A stretch of DNA of 64,000 nt from an uncultured bacterium (GCA_949300485.1 CASGEL010000008.1:1-64000), one strand, 5' to 3'; numbered from the stretch's first letter, positions 2,076-41,773 are shown. Notes: a model not told the origin generated them from the sequence alone. Program-made: numbers and translations.

Positions 2076-3674
2076 TTACAATTCTTTATCAGTCTGCTTT
2101 ATAGGAGCACCTATTACACGCTCTAATTCAGCAGCATTTATATTATATTGTAATACTGTTGAATAATAACTTAACTGTGCATTTAAATATGTATTTTCTG
2201 AATCCTTTAAAACTATTGCGTCTTCAAGACCAACCTGATAACGTCTTGTCGCTTGATAATGCTGTTCTTTAGCCTGTTGAAGAGCAAGTTTTGCTACAGC
2301 AATACTGTCCTGTGAATTCATTAAATTTATATAAGCACTTTTAACTTCCAAGTAAACATTCTGTCTTGCCTGTTCATAATCTGCGACATACTTCTTATAT
2401 GTTGCAGTAGCTTCATCAACTTGTTTTTTCAATAGCATTAAATTTATAGCAGAATACTGTAATTGAACTCCAAACTGGTAGCCATAATCTGCATTTATCT
2501 TTCTTCCGCCATAATTATAAGATCCAAATGCACTAATATCAGGAGTAAATGCCCTTTTAGCGCTTCTGACATTTAACTCAGCAGCATCCATTAATTTTTT
2601 TGCAGATAATAATGATGGTCTTGTAGATTCTGCAACCTGAATTAAATCAGCAAAATTAACATCATATATCTTAGTATTTAAACTATCCTTCAAGATAACA
2701 TCAGCAAGCTCCGGAATACCTACAGCATTAGCAAGCTGAACAGATGCCAATTCCAATGTGTTTTTTGCCTTAATTAAATTCAAATTAGCATTACCCAAAT
2801 TATACTCAGCATACGTAACATCAATTTTTGCTTTTTTACCAATATCATAATAAGCTCTCGCTTGTTTTAACTGTAATTCAAAATCTTTAACTGTTTCCTC
2901 ATAAACAGATTTTTGGATTTTTGCAAAAACTAAATTGTAATACGCAACTTTCACATTATAAATTACGGTTTCTATACTTGTTTCTGCATCATATCTTGAA
3001 GATTCATAACTTTTTTTAGCAGAATCCGCATATGCTTTTGTTTTTCCAAAGTCAAACAATAGCATATTAGCAGAAAGCGTCGGAACATAATACATATCAT
3101 ACTTTGAAGCCATCATTCTTGAAAAATTAGACCCCATTGTATTAAACATGTCATTCCTTGAATAGCTAACGCCTGCTGATAATGTCGGAAAATAATTTGA
3201 CCAAGCCTGACCTATTCTTGATTTATATATTTCCGAATTACTAATAGCTGACATAATTGCAGGATGATGGGTAATAGCCAACTTTATACAATCCTCCAAT
3301 GTAACTTCACCATTCATATCAGCATATTCAATTTTACTGTTTATAACAGGGAATTTAGTTTCGTACATTCCTTCTGCTTCTTTTGAAGATTCAACTTTCG
3401 TTTTTTCATTTCTTATTCGTTTTTTTATTTCTTTTTTATGATTAACCTTAACTTCTTCAGGTTCTACAATATGAACCTTTTCATCCTTATTTTTTTTCGC
3501 AATACGATCTTGCTTTTCTGCAACTTTAGCTGCTTTTTTGGCTTCTTTTTTAGCCTCCTTCTGAGCAAGTCTATCTACATCAGGAGTTAAACTACCCTTA
3601 TCTTTTGCCATAGAAAAAGAGGTTCCTGCAATCAATACTGAAGCTATTAAAAATACATTAAAAATCTTTTTCAT
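2076..3674 (-). CDS. TolC-like outer membrane efflux protein
   Basis: A 532-residue outer-membrane channel of the TolC/OEP family, the exit duct of the RND pump encoded just upstream. Residues 1-23 form a signal peptide. Residues 24-105 are an unusual Lys/Glu-rich stretch (several KEAKKEAKK-type runs) not typical of TolC. Two OEP repeats of about 190 residues follow from about residue 120, with long amphipathic helices such as the one starting SARRYDAET-like at the first repeat and LKQARAYYDIGKKAKIDV. Its ATG overlaps the RND stop by one base (TAATG), so translation is probably coupled. It shows that this organism has an outer membrane. Confidence 0.9.
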   Translation of the reverse strand: MKKIFNVFLIASVLIAGTSFSMAKDKGSLTPDVDRLAQKEAKKEAKKAAKVAEKQDRIAKKNKDEKVHIVEPEEVKVNHKKEIKKRIRNEKTKVESSKEAEGMYETKFPVINSKIEYADMNGEVTLEDCIKLAITHHPAIMSAISNSEIYKSRIGQAWSNYFPTLSAGVSYSRNDMFNTMGSNFSRMMASKYDMYYVPTLSANMLLFDFGKTKAYADSAKKSYESSRYDAETSIETVIYNVKVAYYNLVFAKIQKSVYEETVKDFELQLKQARAYYDIGKKAKIDVTYAEYNLGNANLNLIKAKNTLELASVQLANAVGIPELADVILKDSLNTKIYDVNFADLIQVAESTRPSLLSAKKLMDAAELNVRSAKRAFTPDISAFGSYNYGGRKINADYGYQFGVQLQYSAINLMLLKKQVDEATATYKKYVADYEQARQNVYLEVKSAYINLMNSQDSIAVAKLALQQAKEQHYQATRRYQVGLEDAIVLKDSENTYLNAQLSYYSTVLQYNINAAELERVIGAPIKQTDKEL

Positions 3675-27298: not shown

Positions 27299-27535
27299 TT
27301 ACATAGATTTATGAAAAGTTCTTGAAATAACATCATCCTGTTGTTCTTTTGTTAATTTTATAAAATTAACTGCATATCCAGAAACCCTAACAGTTAACTG
27401 AGGATATTTTTCAGGATGAGCCTGAGCATCAAGTAAGGTTTCTCTGTTAAAAACATTGACATTCAAATGATGTCCGCCTTTTTCCACATATCCGTCCAAT
27501 AAATTTATTAAATTTTCTTCCTGCATTGTAGCCAT
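27299..27535 (-). CDS. separate glycyl-radical subunit of pyruvate formate-lyase (GrcA-like)
   Basis: 78 residues, equal to the C-terminal domain of E. coli Pfl[19 protein letters not shown] lines up with NLAGLMDGYFHHEASIEGGQHLN, and [12 protein letters not shown] contains the radical Gly53 (equivalent to Gly734). In E. coli, GrcA/YfiD is a spare part that repairs an oxygen-cleaved full-length PFL. Here the only PFL gene, immediately upstream, stops before this domain, so this protein is probably an obligatory subunit. It has its own ribosome site (AAAGGA, 8 nt before ATG) and is 76 nt downstream of the core gene. PflA should install the radical. Confidence 0.93.
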
Positions 27536-27611: not shown

Positions 27612-29696
27612 TTAATTAAGATTAGTTTCACAGCAACCCGGATCAAAACTTACAGTCAGATCACCGACAAAAATTTCATCTTTTCCCAATGCATTAGGAA
27701 TAATAGAGAAAGTATTTGAAATTCCGTCCTGAGCATCATCAAACGGAAGTTTTGCAACAGAAGCCAATGATGCTGCAGCACCGTTCATATCACGTCCATG
27801 CATTGGATTGGCTCCAGGTGCCAGTGGAATACCTGCCTTTCTACCGTCAGGGGTATTGCCTGTTTTCTTGCCGTAAACAACATTCGATGTAATTGTCAGA
27901 ATTGACATTGTAGGAATTGAATTTCTGTATGTATAATGTTTTCTGATTTTTGCCATAAAATTCTTAATTAAATCAACGGCAATTTGGTCAACCCTGTCAT
28001 CGTTGTTGCCATATTTAGGGAAATCACCTTCAACCTCATAATCAACAACAATTCCGTTTTCATCTCTTATTGTTTTAACTTTTGCATATTTTATTGCAGA
28101 CAATGAATCAGCAACAACTGATAATCCTGCAATACCTGTTGCAAAATACCTTTTTACATCTCTGTCATGAAGGGCCATTTGCGCTCTTTCATAACAATAT
28201 TTGTCATGCATATAATGAATAATATTCAAAGTATTAACATACAAACCGGCAAGCCATTCCATCATATCATCATAACGCTCCATAACTTCATCATAATTAA
28301 GATACTCAGAAGTTACCGGACGATATTTTGGACCTACTTGAAGTTTTGATTTTTCATCAATACCGCCGTTTATTGCATACAACAAACATTTTGCCAAATT
28401 TGCCCTTGCTCCGAAAAACTGCATTTCTTTTCCGACAACCATAGATGATACACAGCAGGCAATTGCATAATCATCTCCATGAGATACCCTCATCAAATCA
28501 TCATTTTCATATTGAACTGATGATGTCGTAATAGAAATATGAGCACAATATTCTTTAAATTTATGCGGCAATCTCTTTGACCACAGAACAGTCATATTAG
28601 GCTCAGGAGCTGTACCAAGATTTTCTAATGTATGTAAATACCTGAATGAATTTTTTGTAACAAGTGGTCTACCGTCAACTCCAACTCCGCCAATAGATTC
28701 TGTTACCCAGGTAGGATCGCCAGAAAACAGTTCATTATATTCAGGAGTTCTTGCAAATTTTACAAGCCTTAATTTCATTATAAAATGATCAATCATTTCT
28801 TGAGCTTGAGCTTCTGTTATTATACCTTCCCTCAAATCTCTTTCAATATAAATATCAAGAAATGTAGAAGTTCTACCCAGACTCATTGCTGCACCGTTTT
28901 GCTCTTTTATTGCCGCAAGATATCCGAAATAAAGCCATTGTATTGCTTCTTTTGCATTTCTTGCAGGTTTAGAAATATCAAAGCCGTAAATTTTGCCAAG
29001 TTCAATCATTTCGCCCAAAGCTCTTATTTGCTCTGAAATTTCTTCTCTTAATTGAATTCGTTCAGGTGTCATCTCGCCTTCTAAGGATTTAAACTGCTCT
29101 TTTTTATCCTCAATAAGCCTATCAATACCATACAGAGCTACTCTGCGGTAATCACCTATAATACGTCCTCTGCCGTATGCATCAGGAAGACCTGTAATAA
29201 TACCTGAATGTCTTGCAGCTTTCATTTCAGGAGTGTAAACATCAAATACGCCCTGATTATGAGTTTTTCTGTATTTTGTAAAAATTTCTGAAACTTCAGG
29301 GTCGACCTGATAACCATAAGATTTACAAGAGGCTTCAGCCATTCTAATTCCTCCAAACGGCTGCATAGAACGTTTTAACGGCTTGTCCGTTTGTAATCCT
29401 ACAATTGTCTCCAAATCTTTATCTATATAACCTGCACCATGAGAAGTTATTGACGATACAACTTTTGTATCCATATCAAGAACTCCACCGTTTTCACGCT
29501 CTTTTTTTAGTAAATCACAACACTCTTGCCATAAAATTTTAGTAGCTTCTGTAGGACCTTCAAGAAAACTTGAATCGCCCTCATATAATGTATAATTACG
29601 CTGAATGAAATCTCTTACATTTATTTCACTCTGCCATTTTCCCGGCACAAAAGCAGTCTCCGGGTAAAGTTTTTTATCCAGTAGTGTTTCTGCCAT
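27612..29696 (-). CDS. pflB: pyruvate formate-lyase catalytic core lacking the radical domain
   Basis: 694 residues; E. coli PflB is 760. It converts pyruvate + CoA to acetyl-CoA + formate. The active-site Cys pair is present ([13 protein letters not shown], Cys414-415), as are [30 protein letters not shown] and [17 protein letters not shown]. The normal sequence holds up to [12 protein letters not shown], then a novel tail of about 20 residues ([21 protein letters not shown]) replaces the Gly-radical domain, which is encoded by the next gene. The start at 29696 (MAETLLDKK) is preferred because GGGAGA lies before it; the in-frame ATG at 29711 is part of that ribosome site. Activity should need association with the 78-residue subunit. 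Confidence 0.93.
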
Positions 29697-29795
29697 AATT
29701 ATTTCTCCCATATTTTATTATTAATTGTATTTATTACACATAATTATTCCTAATCACAGAATATTATACAACATTAAATAAAAAAAACTACACTT

Positions 29796-34629: not shown

Positions 34630-34681
34630 AAAGTACAATAAAGTTACATACAACAAGACAAAAGTTGCCAACAATAAAAAA

Positions 34682-34768
34682 CAGAGAGGATGGGATTCGA
34701 ACCCACGGTGAAGTTACCCTCACACAACCTTTCCAAGATTGCACCTTAAGCCACTCGGACACCTCTCT
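34682..34768 (-). tRNA. tRNA-Ser, anticodon GGA
   Basis: On the minus strand: acceptor AGAGAGG/CCTCTCT, D-arm TCCGAGTGGCTTAAGGTGC, anticodon loop CTTGGAA (anticodon GGA), long variable arm, T-arm GTGGG-TTCGAAT-CCCAT, discriminator G73. CCA is not encoded; a U-run follows directly and can terminate transcription. Confidence 0.93.
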
Positions 34769-34817
34769 ATGTATTCTAATTATCTGCGAAATGTTATTTT
34801 TCGTCAAGTACAGTTCG

Positions 34818-35027
34818 CTAAAGATTATAATTTCTTTCTGTAGCCTGCTCATCCAATGTTAAAACTTCTTGCTGATAATACTCTTCCGTCTTTTCCATAC
34901 TTGAAATCTTTGCATCTGCAAGACGCTCCAACACTTTGGCATAATCCATACATCTTTTACCCTTTATGCCTTCAGTTTCCATTTGTATTGTACCATCAGG
35001 ATACAGCCGTATTTTCATCTTGCCCAT
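34818..35027 (-). CDS. DUF2997 protein
   Basis: 69 residues. MKIRLYPDGTIQMETEGIKGKRCMDYAKVLERLADAKISSMEKTEEYY fits DUF2997, a short domain (beta hairpin, then helix starting with a conserved Cys that follows G-x-x-C) found next to DUF1257 genes. The function is unknown. It is the last gene of the six-gene minus-strand cluster, 8 nt after the DUF1257 gene, so it is very likely co-translated. The start could be M1 or M4. Confidence 0.8.
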   Translation of the reverse strand: MGKMKIRLYPDGTIQMETEGIKGKRCMDYAKVLERLADAKISSMEKTEEYYQQEVLTLDEQATERNYNL

Positions 35028-35035
35028 ATTTTTGC

Positions 35036-36295
35036 CTACACCTCTATTGTTAAAACTATTGAATTATCTTCCATTACGGTCTCACTTTCAAGACGCATAT
35101 TTTCCTGCTCTAGACGCTCTTTAATTTTATTATATGTAATTTCCTGAATATTTAATCCGTACTCATCATTTAAATCATCTATTAAATCCTGACAAACATT
35201 TTTATCCGAAATTTGCGTTATATCCAACGTGTAACCGTTCGAACCATTCTTTTTATAATAAACCATTTCCATTCCGAAAAGTTTGCAAGAAATCTCTCCG
35301 TCATTTTCTGAAATCTCTTCTGCGCCATGCTCTGTTAGAGTATTTAACAGGACTCCTTTATCCGTATAATTTGTTTGATACGTATACACTGCAGTCGAAA
35401 TATCATTTATAAATCTTAAATCTCTGCCTGCTGCTTTATTTAATTTTCTAAATAATATCTCGGCTTCCTTTGTAATTGCATTGTTATTACTGCCTGCAAA
35501 TTCTGCAGTATAATATCCGTCTTTTAACACCCAATTCAAAGTAGCATTACTATTTTTTAAAGGCGTTTGTGCATCTGCATCATAATATAAATAATTCGCT
35601 AATTTTAATAATCTTTTTAATTCGCCTATTTTTATATTCGTTTTAATCTTTAAATTTGTAAGGCCGTAAGAAACATTTGCACCCTCATAATCGCCGCTTA
35701 AACCTATATTTAAAATCGTAACCTTCTGTTCAACTTCTAACATAAAGTTCTTTTCATCAGGCTGTTTATAATATTTCACGTTTTGACCGTTTAAACTGGC
35801 TGAAACTTCATTATCAGAAGATGCATAAATTTGAACTGCACCTTCCTTTTTTAAATTTGCATATATTTCAGTAATTTTTGTATAACCTGTATCGTAAATA
35901 TAATAGAAAAATTCATTTGATTCGATCAACCTGACATTTCTTTGAGCAATCTTATCCAATTCGGCAAAAAACTGTTCGCCAAAAGCTTGCAACTCTTCAG
36001 GATTTGAACAACCATATAACTTTGCAATTTGATATTTTCCTCTTGTTATCCAATTTACTTTTAAACCATTTGTAAGAGTGCATATATTTCCTTCTTTAGA
36101 ACAATCTACATAACATAATATATTAGGCAATTCATCATAAGTAATATTTGTCAAAACTTTTATGGCACGTAATTTTTCTCGAGATACAGACATGTCAACA
36201 TCGATATCTCTTGAGGCTGGCTTTAATACTTCTTTTTTGGCCTCATTAGGATCAATCAAAAATGCCATAGGATATGCCATTAATGTAATAGACAT
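35036..36295 (-). CDS. DUF1257 (Ycf35-like) protein with duplicated N-terminal units
   Basis: 419 residues. The last 120 (LLNTLTEHGAEEIS ... DDLNDEYGLNIQEITYNKIKERLEQENMRLESETVMEDNSIVLTIEV) match DUF1257/Ycf35, a protein of about 120 residues in cyanobacteria and plastids. Upstream are two related units of about 180 residues: RNVRLIESNEFFYYIYDTGYTKI / RDLRFINDISTAVYTYQTNYTDK and LNGQNVKYYKQPDEKNFMLEV / LFGMEMVYYKKNGSNGYTLDI line up. So the gene probably grew by internal duplication. Function unknown; the position between the AAA ATPase and DUF2997 genes, with gaps of 20 and 8 nt, implies a shared complex. No membrane segments. Confidence 0.75.
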   Translation of the reverse strand: MSITLMAYPMAFLIDPNEAKKEVLKPASRDIDVDMSVSREKLRAIKVLTNITYDELPNILCYVDCSKEGNICTLTNGLKVNWITRGKYQIAKLYGCSNPEELQAFGEQFFAELDKIAQRNVRLIESNEFFYYIYDTGYTKITEIYANLKKEGAVQIYASSDNEVSASLNGQNVKYYKQPDEKNFMLEVEQKVTILNIGLSGDYEGANVSYGLTNLKIKTNIKIGELKRLLKLANYLYYDADAQTPLKNSNATLNWVLKDGYYTAEFAGSNNNAITKEAEILFRKLNKAAGRDLRFINDISTAVYTYQTNYTDKGVLLNTLTEHGAEEISENDGEISCKLFGMEMVYYKKNGSNGYTLDITQISDKNVCQDLIDDLNDEYGLNIQEITYNKIKERLEQENMRLESETVMEDNSIVLTIEV

Positions 36296-36315
36296 TTATA
36301 TCAAACCCTTTCGTT

Positions 36316-37938
36316 TTATACATCCAAAGCTCTTCCACCACGCGAATTATTAACATCACTATTTTCATCTGCATCAGATGAATATTGAGCCATATCATCA
36401 CGTTTTGTTGCTGCAACAGCCCTAATATTAGCCCACTGACGAAGAGCTAAAATTTGTTCTTTCTGAGTTACAGACAGCGGAACTACATTTTTTATAGTTG
36501 TTTCCAGATCAGAAAACTCCAATGGGCGTTTATTAAAGAAAGCCTCATACAACGCAGTTATAACAACTTGCTCAATTTCAGCACCGACAAAGCCCTCCGT
36601 CATATCTGCCAATTTTTCATACAGAGATTCATCCACAATCAACTTACTAGCAACTTCTTTATCTTTTAACCTTTTTGCCAAATGAAGTTTAAATATTTCT
36701 TTTCTTTCTCGATGAGTAGGCAAATCAACAAAGAATATTTCATCAAAACGACCTTTTCTTAAAAGTTCAGCAGGAAGATTACTAATATTATTAGCTGTTG
36801 CAATTACGAAAACAGGAGCGGTCTTCTCCTGCATCCATGTCAAAAAGGTACCAAAAATTCTTGAAGAAGTTCCACTGTCTCCGTTAGAATTCATACCGCT
36901 TAAACTTTTTTCGATTTCATCGACCCATAAAATAGAAGGAGAAACAGCTTCTGCAGTTTTAATTGCTCGACGCATATTCTCTTCAGAACTGCCGACAATT
37001 CCTGAAAATATTTTTCCAAAATCAAGCTTCAACAAAGGAAGCTGCCACGCAGCACTCATTGCTTTAGCAGTCAAACTTTTACCGCAACCTGGGACACCTG
37101 TTATTAAAACGCCCTTTGGAGCAGGAAGACAGTATTTTTTAGCAGATTCAGACCAGGAATTATTACGTTTATTCAGCCAATTTTTTAAATTTTCCAAACC
37201 TCCGACATCTGAAATTTTTATATCTGTATTTATAAACTCCAAAATTCCTGTTTTTTTAATTACCTGCATCTTTTCACTAAGGATTATTGATAAATCTTTT
37301 CCATCAATTTTTCCATCATTAACCATTGCAAGAGCAAAAGCATTTTCTGCCTCTTGCAGGGTTAAACCCAATGCAGCCTTACAAAGACGTTCTTTACCTT
37401 CATCATTTAAATCGGAGGTATCTATTTGATTGTTTTGCTTAACCATTTTTTCCAGTTTCGCTTTAATTTCATCTAAAGTCGGTAAAGGCATATCAACAAT
37501 AGTAATTTCTTTTTGCATTGTCTCAGGAATTATGAGTTCCGAAGCGATAAATATAACATTCTTCCTGAATTTACTCGTTTTTAATTCTCCGATAATATCT
37601 CTTAATCTTCTTACTACGTTATAATCAACCTGGCGACCTTTGACGCCAAAATATACATGAAAATCACACAAAATAAAAACTGCATTTTTATTACATTCTT
37701 TAATAAAAGTTATAGCTTTATCCGGACTTGTTGTACCATCAATTTTTTGCCCATTAAGAATAAATCCGTTTGTCTGAGTCCAAGTATAAACATCTCTTGT
37801 AACTCTTATCAATTTTTCTGCTTGTGCAAGTTTTTTTATAAGTGCAATGGCTCTTTCTTCTTCCCAAGTTGTTAAATATATATATGGAAACCTTGCTCGA
37901 AATAATCTTGACAGTTGAAGAATTATTTTATTATTCAT
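36316..37938 (-). CDS. Ycf46-type AAA+ ATPase
   Basis: 540 residues. The N-terminal part (1-235) resembles cyanobacterial/plastid Ycf46 (LFRARFPYIYLTTWEEERAIALIKKL; FILCDFHVYFG), lacking its own P-loop. The AAA module follows: Walker A ITGVPGCGKSLTAKA (near residue 275), Walker B ILWVDEIEKSL, sensor-1 VIATANN, arginine finger LLRKGRFDEIFFVDLP, then the lid. In Synechocystis, Ycf46 is linked to CO2 acclimation, but that cannot apply directly in a non-photosynthetic relative. The protein ends SRGGRALDV, a tail echoed in two other members of the cluster. It sits 20 nt from each neighbour. Likely remodels a partner encoded in this cluster. Confidence 0.85.
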   Translation of the reverse strand: MNNKIILQLSRLFRARFPYIYLTTWEEERAIALIKKLAQAEKLIRVTRDVYTWTQTNGFILNGQKIDGTTSPDKAITFIKECNKNAVFILCDFHVYFGVKGRQVDYNVVRRLRDIIGELKTSKFRKNVIFIASELIIPETMQKEITIVDMPLPTLDEIKAKLEKMVKQNNQIDTSDLNDEGKERLCKAALGLTLQEAENAFALAMVNDGKIDGKDLSIILSEKMQVIKKTGILEFINTDIKISDVGGLENLKNWLNKRNNSWSESAKKYCLPAPKGVLITGVPGCGKSLTAKAMSAAWQLPLLKLDFGKIFSGIVGSSEENMRRAIKTAEAVSPSILWVDEIEKSLSGMNSNGDSGTSSRIFGTFLTWMQEKTAPVFVIATANNISNLPAELLRKGRFDEIFFVDLPTHRERKEIFKLHLAKRLKDKEVASKLIVDESLYEKLADMTEGFVGAEIEQVVITALYEAFFNKRPLEFSDLETTIKNVVPLSVTQKEQILALRQWANIRAVAATKRDDMAQYSSDADENSDVNNSRGGRALDV

Positions 37939-37958
37939 CTTTGGATCCTCTTTTTTAC

Positions 37959-38567
37959 TTATTTTACTCTATTCTTGCCAAGTTGTAAATATAAACTTTC
38001 CTTTATCTTTTTAAAATCACCCATTCCGTTGATTTCTATACTTCCATCTGTTTTGATTTTAGCTTCAATTTTATTTTTATATTTGTCTATATCATCTTGA
38101 CTATAAAAATCACTCAGAAAAATATATCTTTGATTTGAAGACCCAACCCACGGTCGAGATAAATCAAAATTATCTTTTTCAAATCCTCCGTCTATTAACA
38201 AATCTATATATGATAAAAGACTATTTACAGACATATCGTTTTTAGTTCTTAATTCTTCTATCGTATAACCTGTAAAACAAACAATAGACAAGCCTTTTGA
38301 TTTCACTTTTTCAGCTAACAAAGACAAATCATAAGCCTGCTCAAAAGGTTCTCCGCCTAAGAAAGTCACACCATCTATATTATCAATCTGGATTAATATC
38401 TGATTAAATATGTCATCGACATTATACTTTTTACCGCAGCCAAAAGCCCAAGTATCCTTTGCCCAACAATCGGGACAATGCTTTTTACAACCTTGAGTCC
38501 ATATACAAAACCTATTTCCCGGACCTTCAACTGTCGTATTTACAATAATCTTATACACGTCAAGCAT
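37959..38567 (-). CDS. NrdG-like radical SAM protein
   Basis: 202 residues. The motif GNRFCIWTQGCKKHCPDCWAKDTW contains CKKHCPDC (CxxxCxxC) and the NrdG/activase-type prefix VEGPGNR; GVTFLGGEPFEQ is the GGE SAM-binding motif. NrdG activates anaerobic ribonucleotide reductase, but no nrdD is nearby, and short radical SAM proteins of this type also occur beside DUF1257/AAA genes. I therefore keep the function open: an activase or a peptide-modifying enzyme for a cluster member. Its ATG overlaps the stop of the HhH gene by one base (TAATG), implying coupled translation. Confidence 0.85.
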   Translation of the reverse strand: MLDVYKIIVNTTVEGPGNRFCIWTQGCKKHCPDCWAKDTWAFGCGKKYNVDDIFNQILIQIDNIDGVTFLGGEPFEQAYDLSLLAEKVKSKGLSIVCFTGYTIEELRTKNDMSVNSLLSYIDLLIDGGFEKDNFDLSRPWVGSSNQRYIFLSDFYSQDDIDKYKNKIEAKIKTDGSIEINGMGDFKKIKESLYLQLGKNRVK

Positions 38568-39499
38568 TAAAAATCAACAACCCGTCCTTCAAAGTTATCA
38601 TCATCCGGCTTATTATCCTGTGGTTGTCCTGCAACAATCATACTTTTAATTTTTGGAACAAAATGATCTTTTACATTTGCAGCTTTTATAAAGTCATCAA
38701 TATTTTTAAACAAGCCGTTTGTATCTCTATACTCTACAATCTTTTTTGCCATAATGATATTTATTCCAGGCAAAATAGACAATTCACTTGAAGTAGCAAC
38801 ATTGACATCAATCTTATTTGAAGAATTTGACAAAATTTCGCCCATCTCAACAAATTCCGGAGCTTTTTCTTCTCTTTGCTTAACTGGTTCTTGCTCTTTC
38901 ATTTTATCGATATCAACAAAATTTTCTTTAACTTCTCTTGGCTTTTCAGTTCCTTTCGAATATGAATCAGGATGAATTTCGTCCATAGCAACAAAAGAAG
39001 GACCTATCTTTGAAACATCTATATCTACCTGTTGTTTTTCTATATGTTTAACCTTAGCTTCGAGAGTAACAATCTCAATTTTAGTATCATAACTAAAAAA
39101 TGAAGCAAGAGAATCTAAAGTAATAAATCCGTCAAAGACTCGACAAAGCCTGTTCCATGATTTATTTATGTTAACTTTACCTTTATTAAGAGTAAACATC
39201 CTTTTTGCATGATTTCTATCCGCAACATTATCCATTACAACAATTTTTTCATCCGGAGTATACATAACAGTACAATGTTCATTATTTATTGCATTATTAC
39301 CGATTATAAAACGCTTTGGGACAATATAAATACTGTTACGATATATTTTATCAAGAAAAATATGCCTTAAAATCAAAAACGGAATCATTAAAACTACAAA
39401 TACAGCCAATGAAAAATTTGCAAGCTGCGGAGAAAAATACAACAGAACAAAATACCCTGCGGCAACTGATATAAAAAAATTTCTTAATCGTCTACTCAT
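38567..39499 (-). CDS. membrane helix-hairpin-helix protein 1 of the AAA cluster
   Basis: 310 residues from the ATG at 39499 (MSRRLRNFF); an in-frame ATG at 39526 is possible. Two N-terminal membrane helices (about 10-45), a beta-rich domain (IVPKRFIIGNNAINNEHCTVMYTP...VVMDNVADRNHAKRMFTL), a variable linker, and a C-terminal ComEA-like helix-hairpin-helix unit: VNVATSSELSILPGINIIMAKKIVEYRDTNGLFKNIDDFIKAANV (T-S-S-E-L...PGI...A.KIVEYR). It ends FEGRVVDF. HhH units usually bind DNA, but those with PGIxxxxAxxIVxYR next to membrane anchors can mediate protein contact. It is paralogous to the next gene. Function unknown. Confidence 0.8.
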   Translation of the reverse strand: MSRRLRNFFISVAAGYFVLLYFSPQLANFSLAVFVVLMIPFLILRHIFLDKIYRNSIYIVPKRFIIGNNAINNEHCTVMYTPDEKIVVMDNVADRNHAKRMFTLNKGKVNINKSWNRLCRVFDGFITLDSLASFFSYDTKIEIVTLEAKVKHIEKQQVDIDVSKIGPSFVAMDEIHPDSYSKGTEKPREVKENFVDIDKMKEQEPVKQREEKAPEFVEMGEILSNSSNKIDVNVATSSELSILPGINIIMAKKIVEYRDTNGLFKNIDDFIKAANVKDHFVPKIKSMIVAGQPQDNKPDDDNFEGRVVDF

Positions 39500-39566
39500 A
39501 CAATAATAAAATAACATATACATCAAATTATGAATGATATAAATAGAGGATTTTCAATATTATTGA

Positions 39567-40430
39567 TTATAAATCGACAATCCTTCCGTCACTATCATTA
39601 ATATTAGACTCCGGCAGATTTTCAGATTGACAAATCTCAATCATTGATTCTATTTCAGGAATAAAATGTTCTTTTACACCCGAGACCTTAATAAATTCTC
39701 CTACAGAATTAAATAATCCGTTGAGATTTCTATATTCTACAAGTTTTTTAGCACCGATTATATTTATACCTGGCAGCAGGGCTAACTCCTCTGCTGATGC
39801 AGAATTAACATTAATTTTATCTGTTACATCCACAGAAGAAGCAACCTCCTCTTCCTTCATATTTACAGATCCTGAAATATCCTTAGATTTATCATAAGTT
39901 TTTTGTACTGAATCTATTTTTGCATTTTGAATGATTTTGTCTTGCTCTGGTTTTACTTTTTTATCAAACGTAACAATATTTACATTCATATCAATACTAT
40001 AAAAAGCCGCCAGCATATCTAAATTAGTATCACTATTAAAGTTCTTACACAGTCTACACCACGTTTTATTAACTTTCATATCTTTCCTTGCAATACTAAA
40101 CATTCTTTTTGCATTATCAACATTGTAATCATTATCCATAATAACAATTTGTTTTCCTGGAGTTAAAATAATGGTACAAAAATCATTCCGCAAAGTATTT
40201 GTATTAATAACAAACTGTTTTTGAGCAAATTTAACTCCGTATTTCGCATAACAAAAATCTAATAAAAAAACTATAAAAATAACATAACCAACCAAAAGAA
40301 TTCCAACAGAAAGCAATAATAGCTTACCCATAGGTGTTGTTAAAAAACGTATTATAAAAAATACTAAAACCATCAAAGCAAAACAAACAAATGAAATTAT
40401 TTGAAATCTGATACGTTCTCTCCAAAACAT
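39567..40430 (-). CDS. membrane helix-hairpin-helix protein 2 of the AAA cluster
   Basis: 287 residues from the ATG at 40430 (MFWRERIRF), chosen because a TATATT box lies 6 nt before it and the start matches its paralogue. Two membrane helices (about 8-60), the same beta domain (KQFVINTNTLRNDFCTIILTPGKQIVIMDNDYNVDNAKRMFSI), then a ComEA-like HhH unit (INVNSASAEELALLPGINIIGAKKLVEYRNLNGLFNSVGEFI). It ends SDGRIVDL, matching GRVVDF and GRALDV in neighbours. It is the first gene of the six-gene cluster, divergent from aroA. The pair probably forms a membrane platform for the ATPase. Confidence 0.8.
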   Translation of the reverse strand: MFWRERIRFQIISFVCFALMVLVFFIIRFLTTPMGKLLLLSVGILLVGYVIFIVFLLDFCYAKYGVKFAQKQFVINTNTLRNDFCTIILTPGKQIVIMDNDYNVDNAKRMFSIARKDMKVNKTWCRLCKNFNSDTNLDMLAAFYSIDMNVNIVTFDKKVKPEQDKIIQNAKIDSVQKTYDKSKDISGSVNMKEEEVASSVDVTDKINVNSASAEELALLPGINIIGAKKLVEYRNLNGLFNSVGEFIKVSGVKEHFIPEIESMIEICQSENLPESNINDSDGRIVDL

Positions 40431-40480
40431 ATATATAATATACAATAAAATTACTTATTTATCTAATAAATAATTTATGT

Positions 40481-40492: not shown

Positions 40493-41773
40493 ATGATTAA
40501 AAAGGTAACTAAAGACTTCAAAAATTTGAATGGAGAAATAATAATTCCCCCTGATAAATCTATTTCTCACAGAGCTGTCATATTTGCATCTTTAGCTAAC
40601 GGTAAATCCATAATAAAAAATTTTTCAGACGGACAGGATCCAAAATCAACACTTAATATATTTAAACACTTAGGAGTTGATATTGAAATTCAAAAAAATG
40701 CAACCATCATAATAAATTCAAAAGCAAAATTACTTCCGCCTACACAAAATCTTGATTGCGGAAACTCCGGCACCAGCATGAGATTAATAGCAGGAGTACT
40801 TGCCAGACAAAAATTTAATTCTGTCCTGATCGGGGATCAAAGTCTTTCCAAGCGCCCTATGAAACGCATAATTGAACCACTAACTCTTATGGGAGCACAC
40901 ATAGAATCCCCAAATTATACAGCACCGCTCAAAATAAAAGGACAAAAACTACATGCAATACATTATAACTCACCTAAAGCCTCTGCTCAGGTAAAATCCT
41001 GCATTCTTCTTGCCGGATTAGGTGCAGAAGGTGGAAAAACAATTATCTCTGAACCGTTTTTATCAAGAAACCATACCGAAATTATGCTTAAATACATGGG
41101 GGCAAATATTGAAGTTTCAGAAAATACTGTTTCGATAGAAAAATCCGAACTTACTCCTATAGATATAGAGATTTGCGGCGATATATCTTCTGCAGCATAT
41201 TTTATAGCAGCAGCACTAATCGTTCCAAAATCTAACATAATATTAAAAAAAGTAGGACTAAACCCAACAAGAACCGGAATTCTTGATATTCTGAAGCAAA
41301 TGGGTGCTGATATAAAAATTATAGATGAATATGAAATTTGCGGCGAAAAAGTCGGAACATTACAAATAAAATACTCTCAACTAAACGGGTGTGAAATTTC
41401 CGGAGAGATTATACCAAGACTTATTGATGAAATACCTATACTTGCAGTAATTGCAACACAAGCAAACGGAAAAACATTGATTAAAGATGCATTAGAACTT
41501 AGAAACAAAGAATCCGATAGAATTACCAGTGTTGTAACAGAATTAAAAAAACTCGGCGCTAATATAGAAGAAACCCAAGATGGAATGATTATAGAAGGAA
41601 AAACTCCACTTATGGGAGATTGTGAGGTTAAAACATACCATGATCACAGACTTGCAATGAGTTTATATGTTGCAGGGTTAATTTGCAAAAAAGAAATCTT
41701 AATAAAGAACTTTCAATGGGTAAATATATCTTTTCCTACTTTTGAAAAACTCTTTGAATCACTAAAAAAATAG
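40493..41773 (+). CDS. aroA: 3-phosphoshikimate 1-carboxyvinyltransferase (EPSP synthase)
   Basis: 426 residues, the normal length. It joins PEP to shikimate-3-phosphate in the shikimate pathway. Motifs: PPDKSISHRAVIFASLANGKS (substrate lysine/serine/arginine), DCGNSGTSMRLIAGVLA (active-site NSGT), QSLSKRPMKRI, DISSAAYFIAAAL, and KESDRITSVVTELKKLGANIEE. It is a cytoplasmic class II-type enzyme judging by the LSKRPM sequence. Stand-alone gene; it ends 4 nt before the convergent ABC permease stop. Likely leaderless. The presence of the shikimate pathway suggests that it makes aromatic amino acids. Confidence 0.95.
   Translation: MIKKVTKDFKNLNGEIIIPPDKSISHRAVIFASLANGKSIIKNFSDGQDPKSTLNIFKHLGVDIEIQKNATIIINSKAKLLPPTQNLDCGNSGTSMRLIAGVLARQKFNSVLIGDQSLSKRPMKRIIEPLTLMGAHIESPNYTAPLKIKGQKLHAIHYNSPKASAQVKSCILLAGLGAEGGKTIISEPFLSRNHTEIMLKYMGANIEVSENTVSIEKSELTPIDIEICGDISSAAYFIAAALIVPKSNIILKKVGLNPTRTGILDILKQMGADIKIIDEYEICGEKVGTLQIKYSQLNGCEISGEIIPRLIDEIPILAVIATQANGKTLIKDALELRNKESDRITSVVTELKKLGANIEETQDGMIIEGKTPLMGDCEVKTYHDHRLAMSLYVAGLICKKEILIKNFQWVNISFPTFEKLFESLKK

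Follow-up and report, generated by a model that had tools for sequence, protein, structure and literature searches.

The closest described relatives of the system reported here come from cyanobacteria. A passage of PMC4284462 describes a DUF2997-ycf35(DUF1257)-fed7 cluster, in which the genes of DUF2997 and DUF1257 stand side by side with the gene of an iron-sulphur protein. The loss of ycf46 has been reported to lower carbonic anhydrase activity, as mentioned in a passage of PMC7496141 that cites Jiang et al. 2015. A comparable gene set occurs in a DNA stretch of 64,000 nucleotides (nt) from an uncultured bacterium (GCA_949300485.1, CASGEL010000008.1:1-64000), which as a whole is called the window below. 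Its six-gene operon encodes an AAA protein, a DUF1257-like protein, a DUF2997 protein, a radical-SAM protein and two membrane proteins with helix-hairpin-helix (HhH) domains, referred to here as client 1 (HhH1) and client 2 (HhH2). The AAA protein and both clients end in the same short C-terminal tail. This common tail is the most telling feature of the locus and was absent from the initial annotation.

The tail has the form GRx[LIV]D[hydrophobic]-COOH; the AAA protein ends in GGRALDV, HhH1 in GRVVDF and HhH2 in GRIVDL. In the 2.05-Mb genome the pattern has exactly three matches, which are the C-termini of these three proteins, and the reversed control pattern has one. At 27 loci together with part of the window, 42 of the 522 called genes carried the motif, all of them AAA, HhH or partner genes of this system. 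A wider sample comprised the 80 best loci from a scan of 84,980 species genomes. Around the AAA gene at these loci, 81 of 1179 non-AAA genes ended in the tail, compared with 4 that matched the reversed motif and none that matched the scrambled one. Adding L148, a host-derived contig from a viral collection with a cellular-type operon, brought the number of tails to 83; 81 of them are encoded on the same strand as the AAA gene, and 79 are no more than 4 kb away from it. Residue by residue, the ending of the AAA protein consists of R (69 of 70 proteins), G, G and R (70 each), any residue, [LIV], D (67) or E (3) and [FVYLI]; GGR is thus present in all 70 tail-bearing cellular AAA proteins. The client tail shows G (56) or E (22), R (83), any residue, mostly [VIL], D (80) or E (3) and [FLYIVW]. 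Nine unlinked tail-like DNA matches in 40 relatives were read as possible further clients; none was a real C-terminus.

Four genus genomes (G021, G024, G072 and G079) have an HhH gene beside aroA and no close AAA gene, and the tail is absent from all of their HhH proteins. The downstream sequence is present in G021 and G024 and contains neither a radical-SAM nor an AAA gene; in G072 and G079 the contig ends nearby, the absence of the AAA gene being taken from the genome search alone. HhH paralogues located apart from the operon in AAA-positive genomes retain the tail (RIVDF). One of these unlinked paralogues is 211 amino acids (aa) long and matches the N-terminal part of the query only. Among Mrr nuclease homologues on plasmids, the one read (L247) has a C-terminus without the tail, its identity of only about 30% giving it little weight as a control. 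The tail is common to the motor and the clients, is system-specific and is absent where there is no AAA gene; it marks membership of the system.

The six open reading frames are all on the minus strand, where the initial annotation had placed them, with intergenic spacings, in order, of 8, 20 and 20 nt, a 1-nt overlap and 40 nt. The features of the operon and its flanks are as follows.

34681-34769, minus strand: tRNA-Ser, flanking the operon on one side.
34818-35027, minus strand: DUF2997 small protein, 69 aa; Pfam PF11211 at 45.6 bits; same position in most relatives.
35036-36295, minus strand: DUF1257-like protein, 419 aa; related to DUF1257 by hhalign; repeated alpha+beta domains in its model and a hydrophobic N-terminus.
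36316-37938, minus strand: AAA protein, 540 aa; PF00004 at 2.4e-29; degenerate AAA module, active AAA module and disordered C-terminal tail.
36319-36336, minus strand: codons of the AAA tail GRALDV, followed by the stop codon; one of the three matches in the genome.
37959-38567, minus strand: radical-SAM protein, 202 aa; PF13353 at 1.7e-35; NrdG-like core with CxxxCxxC and a C-terminal extension.
38567-39526, minus strand: client 1 (HhH1); PF12836 at 2.1e-15; two membrane segments, linker, HHH_3 domain and tail; conserved in the genus.
38570-38587, minus strand: codons of the client 1 tail GRVVDF, from the genome tail search.
39567-40445, minus strand: client 2 (HhH2), a paralogue of client 1; PF12836 at 2.9e-14; start codon at either 40445 or 40430; found in only some of the relatives.
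39570-39587, minus strand: codons of the client 2 tail GRIVDL, from the genome tail search.
40493-41773, plus strand: aroA, flanking the operon on the other side.

Pfam scores were over or near the cut-offs for the AAA domain and its lid, for Fer4_12/radical SAM and for HHH_3 in both membrane proteins.

Across the genus, a close AAA homologue was found in 33 of 46 genomes. The order (HhH)-radical SAM-AAA-DUF1257-DUF2997 is kept beside aroA at the loci examined, except for contig-split cases and a second, paralogous operon type, which adjoins recombinase genes in G008 and G023. The 80 loci of the wider sample span Actinomycetota, Bacillota including Clostridia, Methanosphaera, Gastranaerophilales and single metagenome-assembled genomes of Planctomycetota and Armatimonadota. 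At most of the resolved loci there are genes for a radical-SAM protein, for a DUF1257-like protein and for between one and five membrane or HhH proteins, and often DUF2997 as well; calling of open reading frames fails at the GC-rich actinobacterial loci L070, L071, L087, L093 and L102, and the counts there are lower bounds. Actinobacterial plasmids bear the same gene set, annotated with generic names only. The genes thus recur as one unit across the genus and in other phyla, as had been proposed. The initial annotation would have been contradicted by HhH and radical-SAM genes not kept next to AAA and DUF1257; both are conserved beside AAA, DUF1257 and DUF2997.

The link to the membrane is also supported, a crude hydropathy scan predicting membrane segments in 67 of the 80 client proteins. 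Tail carriers are of several types: proteins with two transmembrane segments and HhH, with GYF_2 and HhH, or with TPR and an HhH-like C-terminus, as well as an Mrr nuclease with membrane segments and no HhH, and proteins with two transmembrane segments alone. The carriers are non-homologous, and the AAA, Mrr-membrane and two-transmembrane carriers have no HhH module. In client 1, the pair of membrane segments is flanked on either side by basic residues, which suggests a cytosolic location of both ends and hence of the tail. At L063 (3814-8092) and L064 (1918-6266), an unlinked tail-bearing HhH paralogue adjoins [FeFe]-hydrogenase-like and SpoIIE-type phosphatase genes.

The predicted model of the AAA protein has a mean predicted local distance difference test score (pLDDT) of 89.5, with the last residues disordered, as would be expected of a short linear motif. 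In Foldseek the model aligns with p97/Cdc48 over about 560 columns covering both AAA tiers; two tandem AAA modules as in p97-like machines are recognized by fold only. The sequence of the first module contains no Walker A motif; that of the second contains GVPGCGKS and ILWVDEIEK. Judging by its model, the AAA protein would be a compact p97/Cdc48-like double ring with a degenerated first tier and a disordered C-terminal tail. Its Ycf46-type homology extends across the degenerate N-terminal module and the AAA module, with 44% identity over 92% of the query, the comparison partner being a cyanobacterial plasmid AAA protein encoded beside DUF1257 and DUF2997.

The DUF2997 gene was annotated correctly, its 45.6 bits exceeding the PF11211 gathering score of 24.1. 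A resemblance of DUF2997 to the selenoprotein TsoC has an E-value of 0.083. DUF2997 itself can bear the tail: the protein at L256 (6431-6640) has the C-terminus IRRIDF, and that of the window ends in ERNYNL, a degenerate look-alike. In two phages, DUF1257 and DUF2997 are fused. The description of the 419-aa protein as a duplicated DUF1257 protein stands for the internal repeat and not for the Pfam family. The protein has no Pfam match to PF06868 (DUF1257/Ycf35), which is matched, weakly, by 6 of 46 members of the DUF1257-like family. Its homology to DUF1257 is distant and at the profile level only, profile-profile comparison with hhalign relating the last ~115 residues to DUF1257 (probability 94.4%, E 8.8e-8). 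The internal repeat is supported because residues 212-361 also align with the first-half region of a relative and the fold model shows a row of similar alpha+beta domains (pLDDT 82, predicted template modelling score 0.46). The fold search with this model returned common alpha+beta folds only, such as the beta2-adaptin appendage (Z 9.4, 83 aligned residues, root-mean-square deviation 2.5) and TBP (Z about 6), and therefore allows no functional call. No convincing relatives of DUF1257 were found among solved structures. Cellular DUF1257-like proteins have a hydrophobic N-terminus, with a mean hydropathy of 1.72 versus 0.48 in the viral and plasmid ones.

The radical-SAM protein keeps the NrdG-like core that had been assigned to it, and CxxxCxxC is conserved in 68 of its 69 relatives. 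It falls short of the curated NrdG equivalog (116.3 bits against a cut-off of 126.1) and was rejected as the NrdG of this genome. The radical-SAM enzyme is not needed as an activase of ribonucleotide reductase, because the genome has its own NrdD-NrdG pair on contig C23 (NrdD at 955-2730, the activase gene at 2775-3182). Elsewhere in the window, pyruvate formate-lyase is encoded in two pieces that divide the glycyl-radical domain between them: a 699-aa body (27612-29711, minus strand) with its first half and a separate 78-aa gene (27299-27535, minus strand) with its second half, including RVSGYAV. L035 and L037 have the same gene pair.

In the AAA tree, the cellular clade (n=76) has near-universal GGR tails and usually clients. 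The phage clade of Ycf46-like AAA proteins (n=32) has mostly RxLD[LIV] tails, and no clients, radical-SAM or DUF1257 genes were found nearby among the viral loci L171-L227; HhH proteins in phages are represented by one fragment only. Whole virus records, which may be fragments, were searched in 15 cases with tails or near-tails. One record (L164) contained DUF1257 and a strong Fer4_12 gene elsewhere, two had weak Fer4_12 matches and 12 had neither. The missing DUF1257 matches have little weight, because the Pfam model also misses genuine genes in control phages. Because tail-bearing AAA proteins occur in phages without neighbouring client or partner genes, the simplest role for the tail is one connected with the AAA protein itself. 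The tail on AAA proteins extends beyond the association with radical SAM, which tilts the mechanism towards docking.

Several plasmid relatives differ in their tails and surroundings. In Treponema succinifaciens plasmid pTRESU01 (L052, 7369-9524), radical-SAM and AAA genes, the AAA protein ending in GVRKLEM, are embedded among genes annotated as VgrG/Pvc8 and baseplate V, an arrangement resembling a contractile injection system. In Paenibacillus polymyxa plasmid pPPM1a (L252, 7907-9247), two membrane proteins encoded after AAA-DUF1257-DUF2997-radical SAM end in SRVIHF and KRVIRL, possibly a variant tail; the AAA protein has none. On the cyanobacterial plasmids L053 and L251, the related AAA-DUF1257-DUF2997 genes adjoin GrpE/Hsp70, or RloB, DUF4007 and zeta-toxin genes, a conflict-like setting, and the AAA proteins are tail-less.

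The operon may well encode one membrane-associated protein-remodelling machine, whose clients dock through a short C-terminal address tag copied from the motor; we give this proposal an even chance. The AAA C-terminus, RGGRx-hydrophobic-D-hydrophobic-COOH, would be a flexible tail. The clients, in which two membrane segments usually precede a cytosolic HhH domain, bear the same GRx-hydrophobic-D-hydrophobic ending and could dock at a site that also recognizes the AAA tail, thereby mimicking the tail of the motor. This site would most likely be on the AAA ring itself or on the DUF1257/DUF2997 adaptors. ATP hydrolysis would then drive the remodelling of clients or of their partners; a modification or activation step might come from the radical-SAM enzyme. 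The docking itself, the component that acts as receptor, the sequence of steps, the part played by the radical-SAM enzyme and the purpose of the system are our inferences. The view of the initial annotation, a membrane-attached machine with a possible peptide-modifying enzyme, is partly supported. Several observations weigh against the docking proposal. Judged by sequence, an aliphatic pair replaces the aromatic residue in the pore loop of the second module, and unfolding by the AAA protein is therefore not assured. The tail is not always at the free C-terminus, a few copies having one or two extra residues or no last hydrophobic residue; in one genus subclade it reads ERTVD or ERIVD, the final hydrophobic residue being missing. 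Finally, some phages with all four core genes have an AAA protein without the tail.

The tail could instead be the substrate site of the radical-SAM enzyme, with the AAA protein and clients modified after translation at GRx-hydrophobic-D; in this case DUF1257/DUF2997 would present the peptide, and the AAA protein would remodel it. We regard this as possible, on the unlikely side. The strict GG before R on cellular AAA proteins, next to a nearly always adjacent radical-SAM gene, and the mostly missing GG in phage-clade tails that lack such a neighbour are consistent with it. However, the clients have no GG and often E at that position, and the tail-less phage AAA proteins just mentioned are accompanied by radical SAM, DUF1257 and DUF2997. 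Phage AAA tails also occur without an adjacent radical-SAM gene, mostly with no Fer4_12 match in the record, which weakens the tail as a strict radical-SAM mark. A broader version, in which the tail is a new protein-modification code, the enzyme placing a chemical mark at the C-terminal ends of the AAA protein and, in bacteria and archaea alike, of many unrelated membrane proteins, with DUF1257/DUF2997 serving and the p97-like AAA protein driving, appears rather improbable.

A conflict (defence) system concerns the purpose and is compatible with either docking or modification: HhH or Mrr proteins anchored in the membrane would detect or cleave DNA entering the cell, and the AAA machine, recruited through the tail, would switch them. 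A connection with DNA at the membrane is suggested by the HhH and Mrr-nuclease clients and by the presence of the operon on plasmids. The patchy presence in the genus, recombinase or integrase neighbours at some loci and the conflict-like genes near the cyanobacterial plasmid relatives point the same way; the link to defence is weak. It has to be set against the long-term residence beside aroA in the genus and the lack of a match to any known complete defence system. PADLOC and integrase matches were few among 100 flanking genes, a count for which a background rate is lacking. Defence is a doubtful purpose.

Less probable still is a tail serving only the self-assembly or self-inhibition of the AAA ring, with client tails acting as degrons for client removal. 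Phage AAA tails without clients and the degron-like, extreme C-terminal position would fit it, but client tails are strongly conserved wherever the AAA gene is present within the loci studied, and no protease gene is seen in the operon. Chance likeness, or the mere inheritance of one module in which the tail itself does nothing, might be read from the HhH module that precedes the tail in most clients; it is already contradicted by the carriers without this module, by the control motifs (0-4 against 81 matches) and by the AAA-less genomes, where the tail is absent, and is extremely improbable.

The initial annotation knew of no described function for the combination, and a search for the gene set, the tail strings and a DUF2997/DUF1257/Ycf46 system in open-access full texts likewise returned no description, subscription papers and bioRxiv being outside the search. 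The four-gene DUF core occurs in several bacterial phyla and archaea, in part in cyanobacteria and plastids, and its clients can be recognized by their last six residues. This tail rule turns the long-open question of Ycf46/DUF1257/DUF2997 function into pull-down and mass-spectrometry work. If true, this would make the tail a further, new address tag of an AAA machine.

Several known systems share parts of this design. Like ComEA-type DNA receptors, the clients have a membrane anchor and an HHH_3 domain, but they differ by two N-terminal membrane segments, the C-terminal tail and the AAA operon, and they score 41.9 and 48.9 bits with the curated ComE model, below its cut-off of 152. The radical-SAM core is shared with NrdG and pyruvate formate-lyase activating enzymes, whereas the window protein has a C-terminal extension and adjoins no glycyl-radical enzyme gene. 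The AAA domain matches the IetA models of the IetAS anti-phage system; the match is confined to the AAA core, no serine-protease (IetS) partner is among the cluster genes, and the operon is not assigned to this system. p97 has a flexible C-terminal tail that is bound by cofactors. The window AAA protein shares with p97/Cdc48 the tandem AAA modules and an alignment over the full length, and differs in having no N-domain, a degenerate first module, another tail sequence and copies of the tail on clients. In the cyanobacterial relatives, AAA proteins with the above 44% identity adjoin DUF1257 and DUF2997 on plasmids; there, however, no tail-bearing clients occur, the AAA protein is tail-less on two plasmids, and the DUF2997-ycf35-fed7 cluster has a ferredoxin in place of radical SAM. 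Judged by open-access papers, the protein folds and the idea of a tag-reading AAA machine were already known, and the gene set and the tail code are new.

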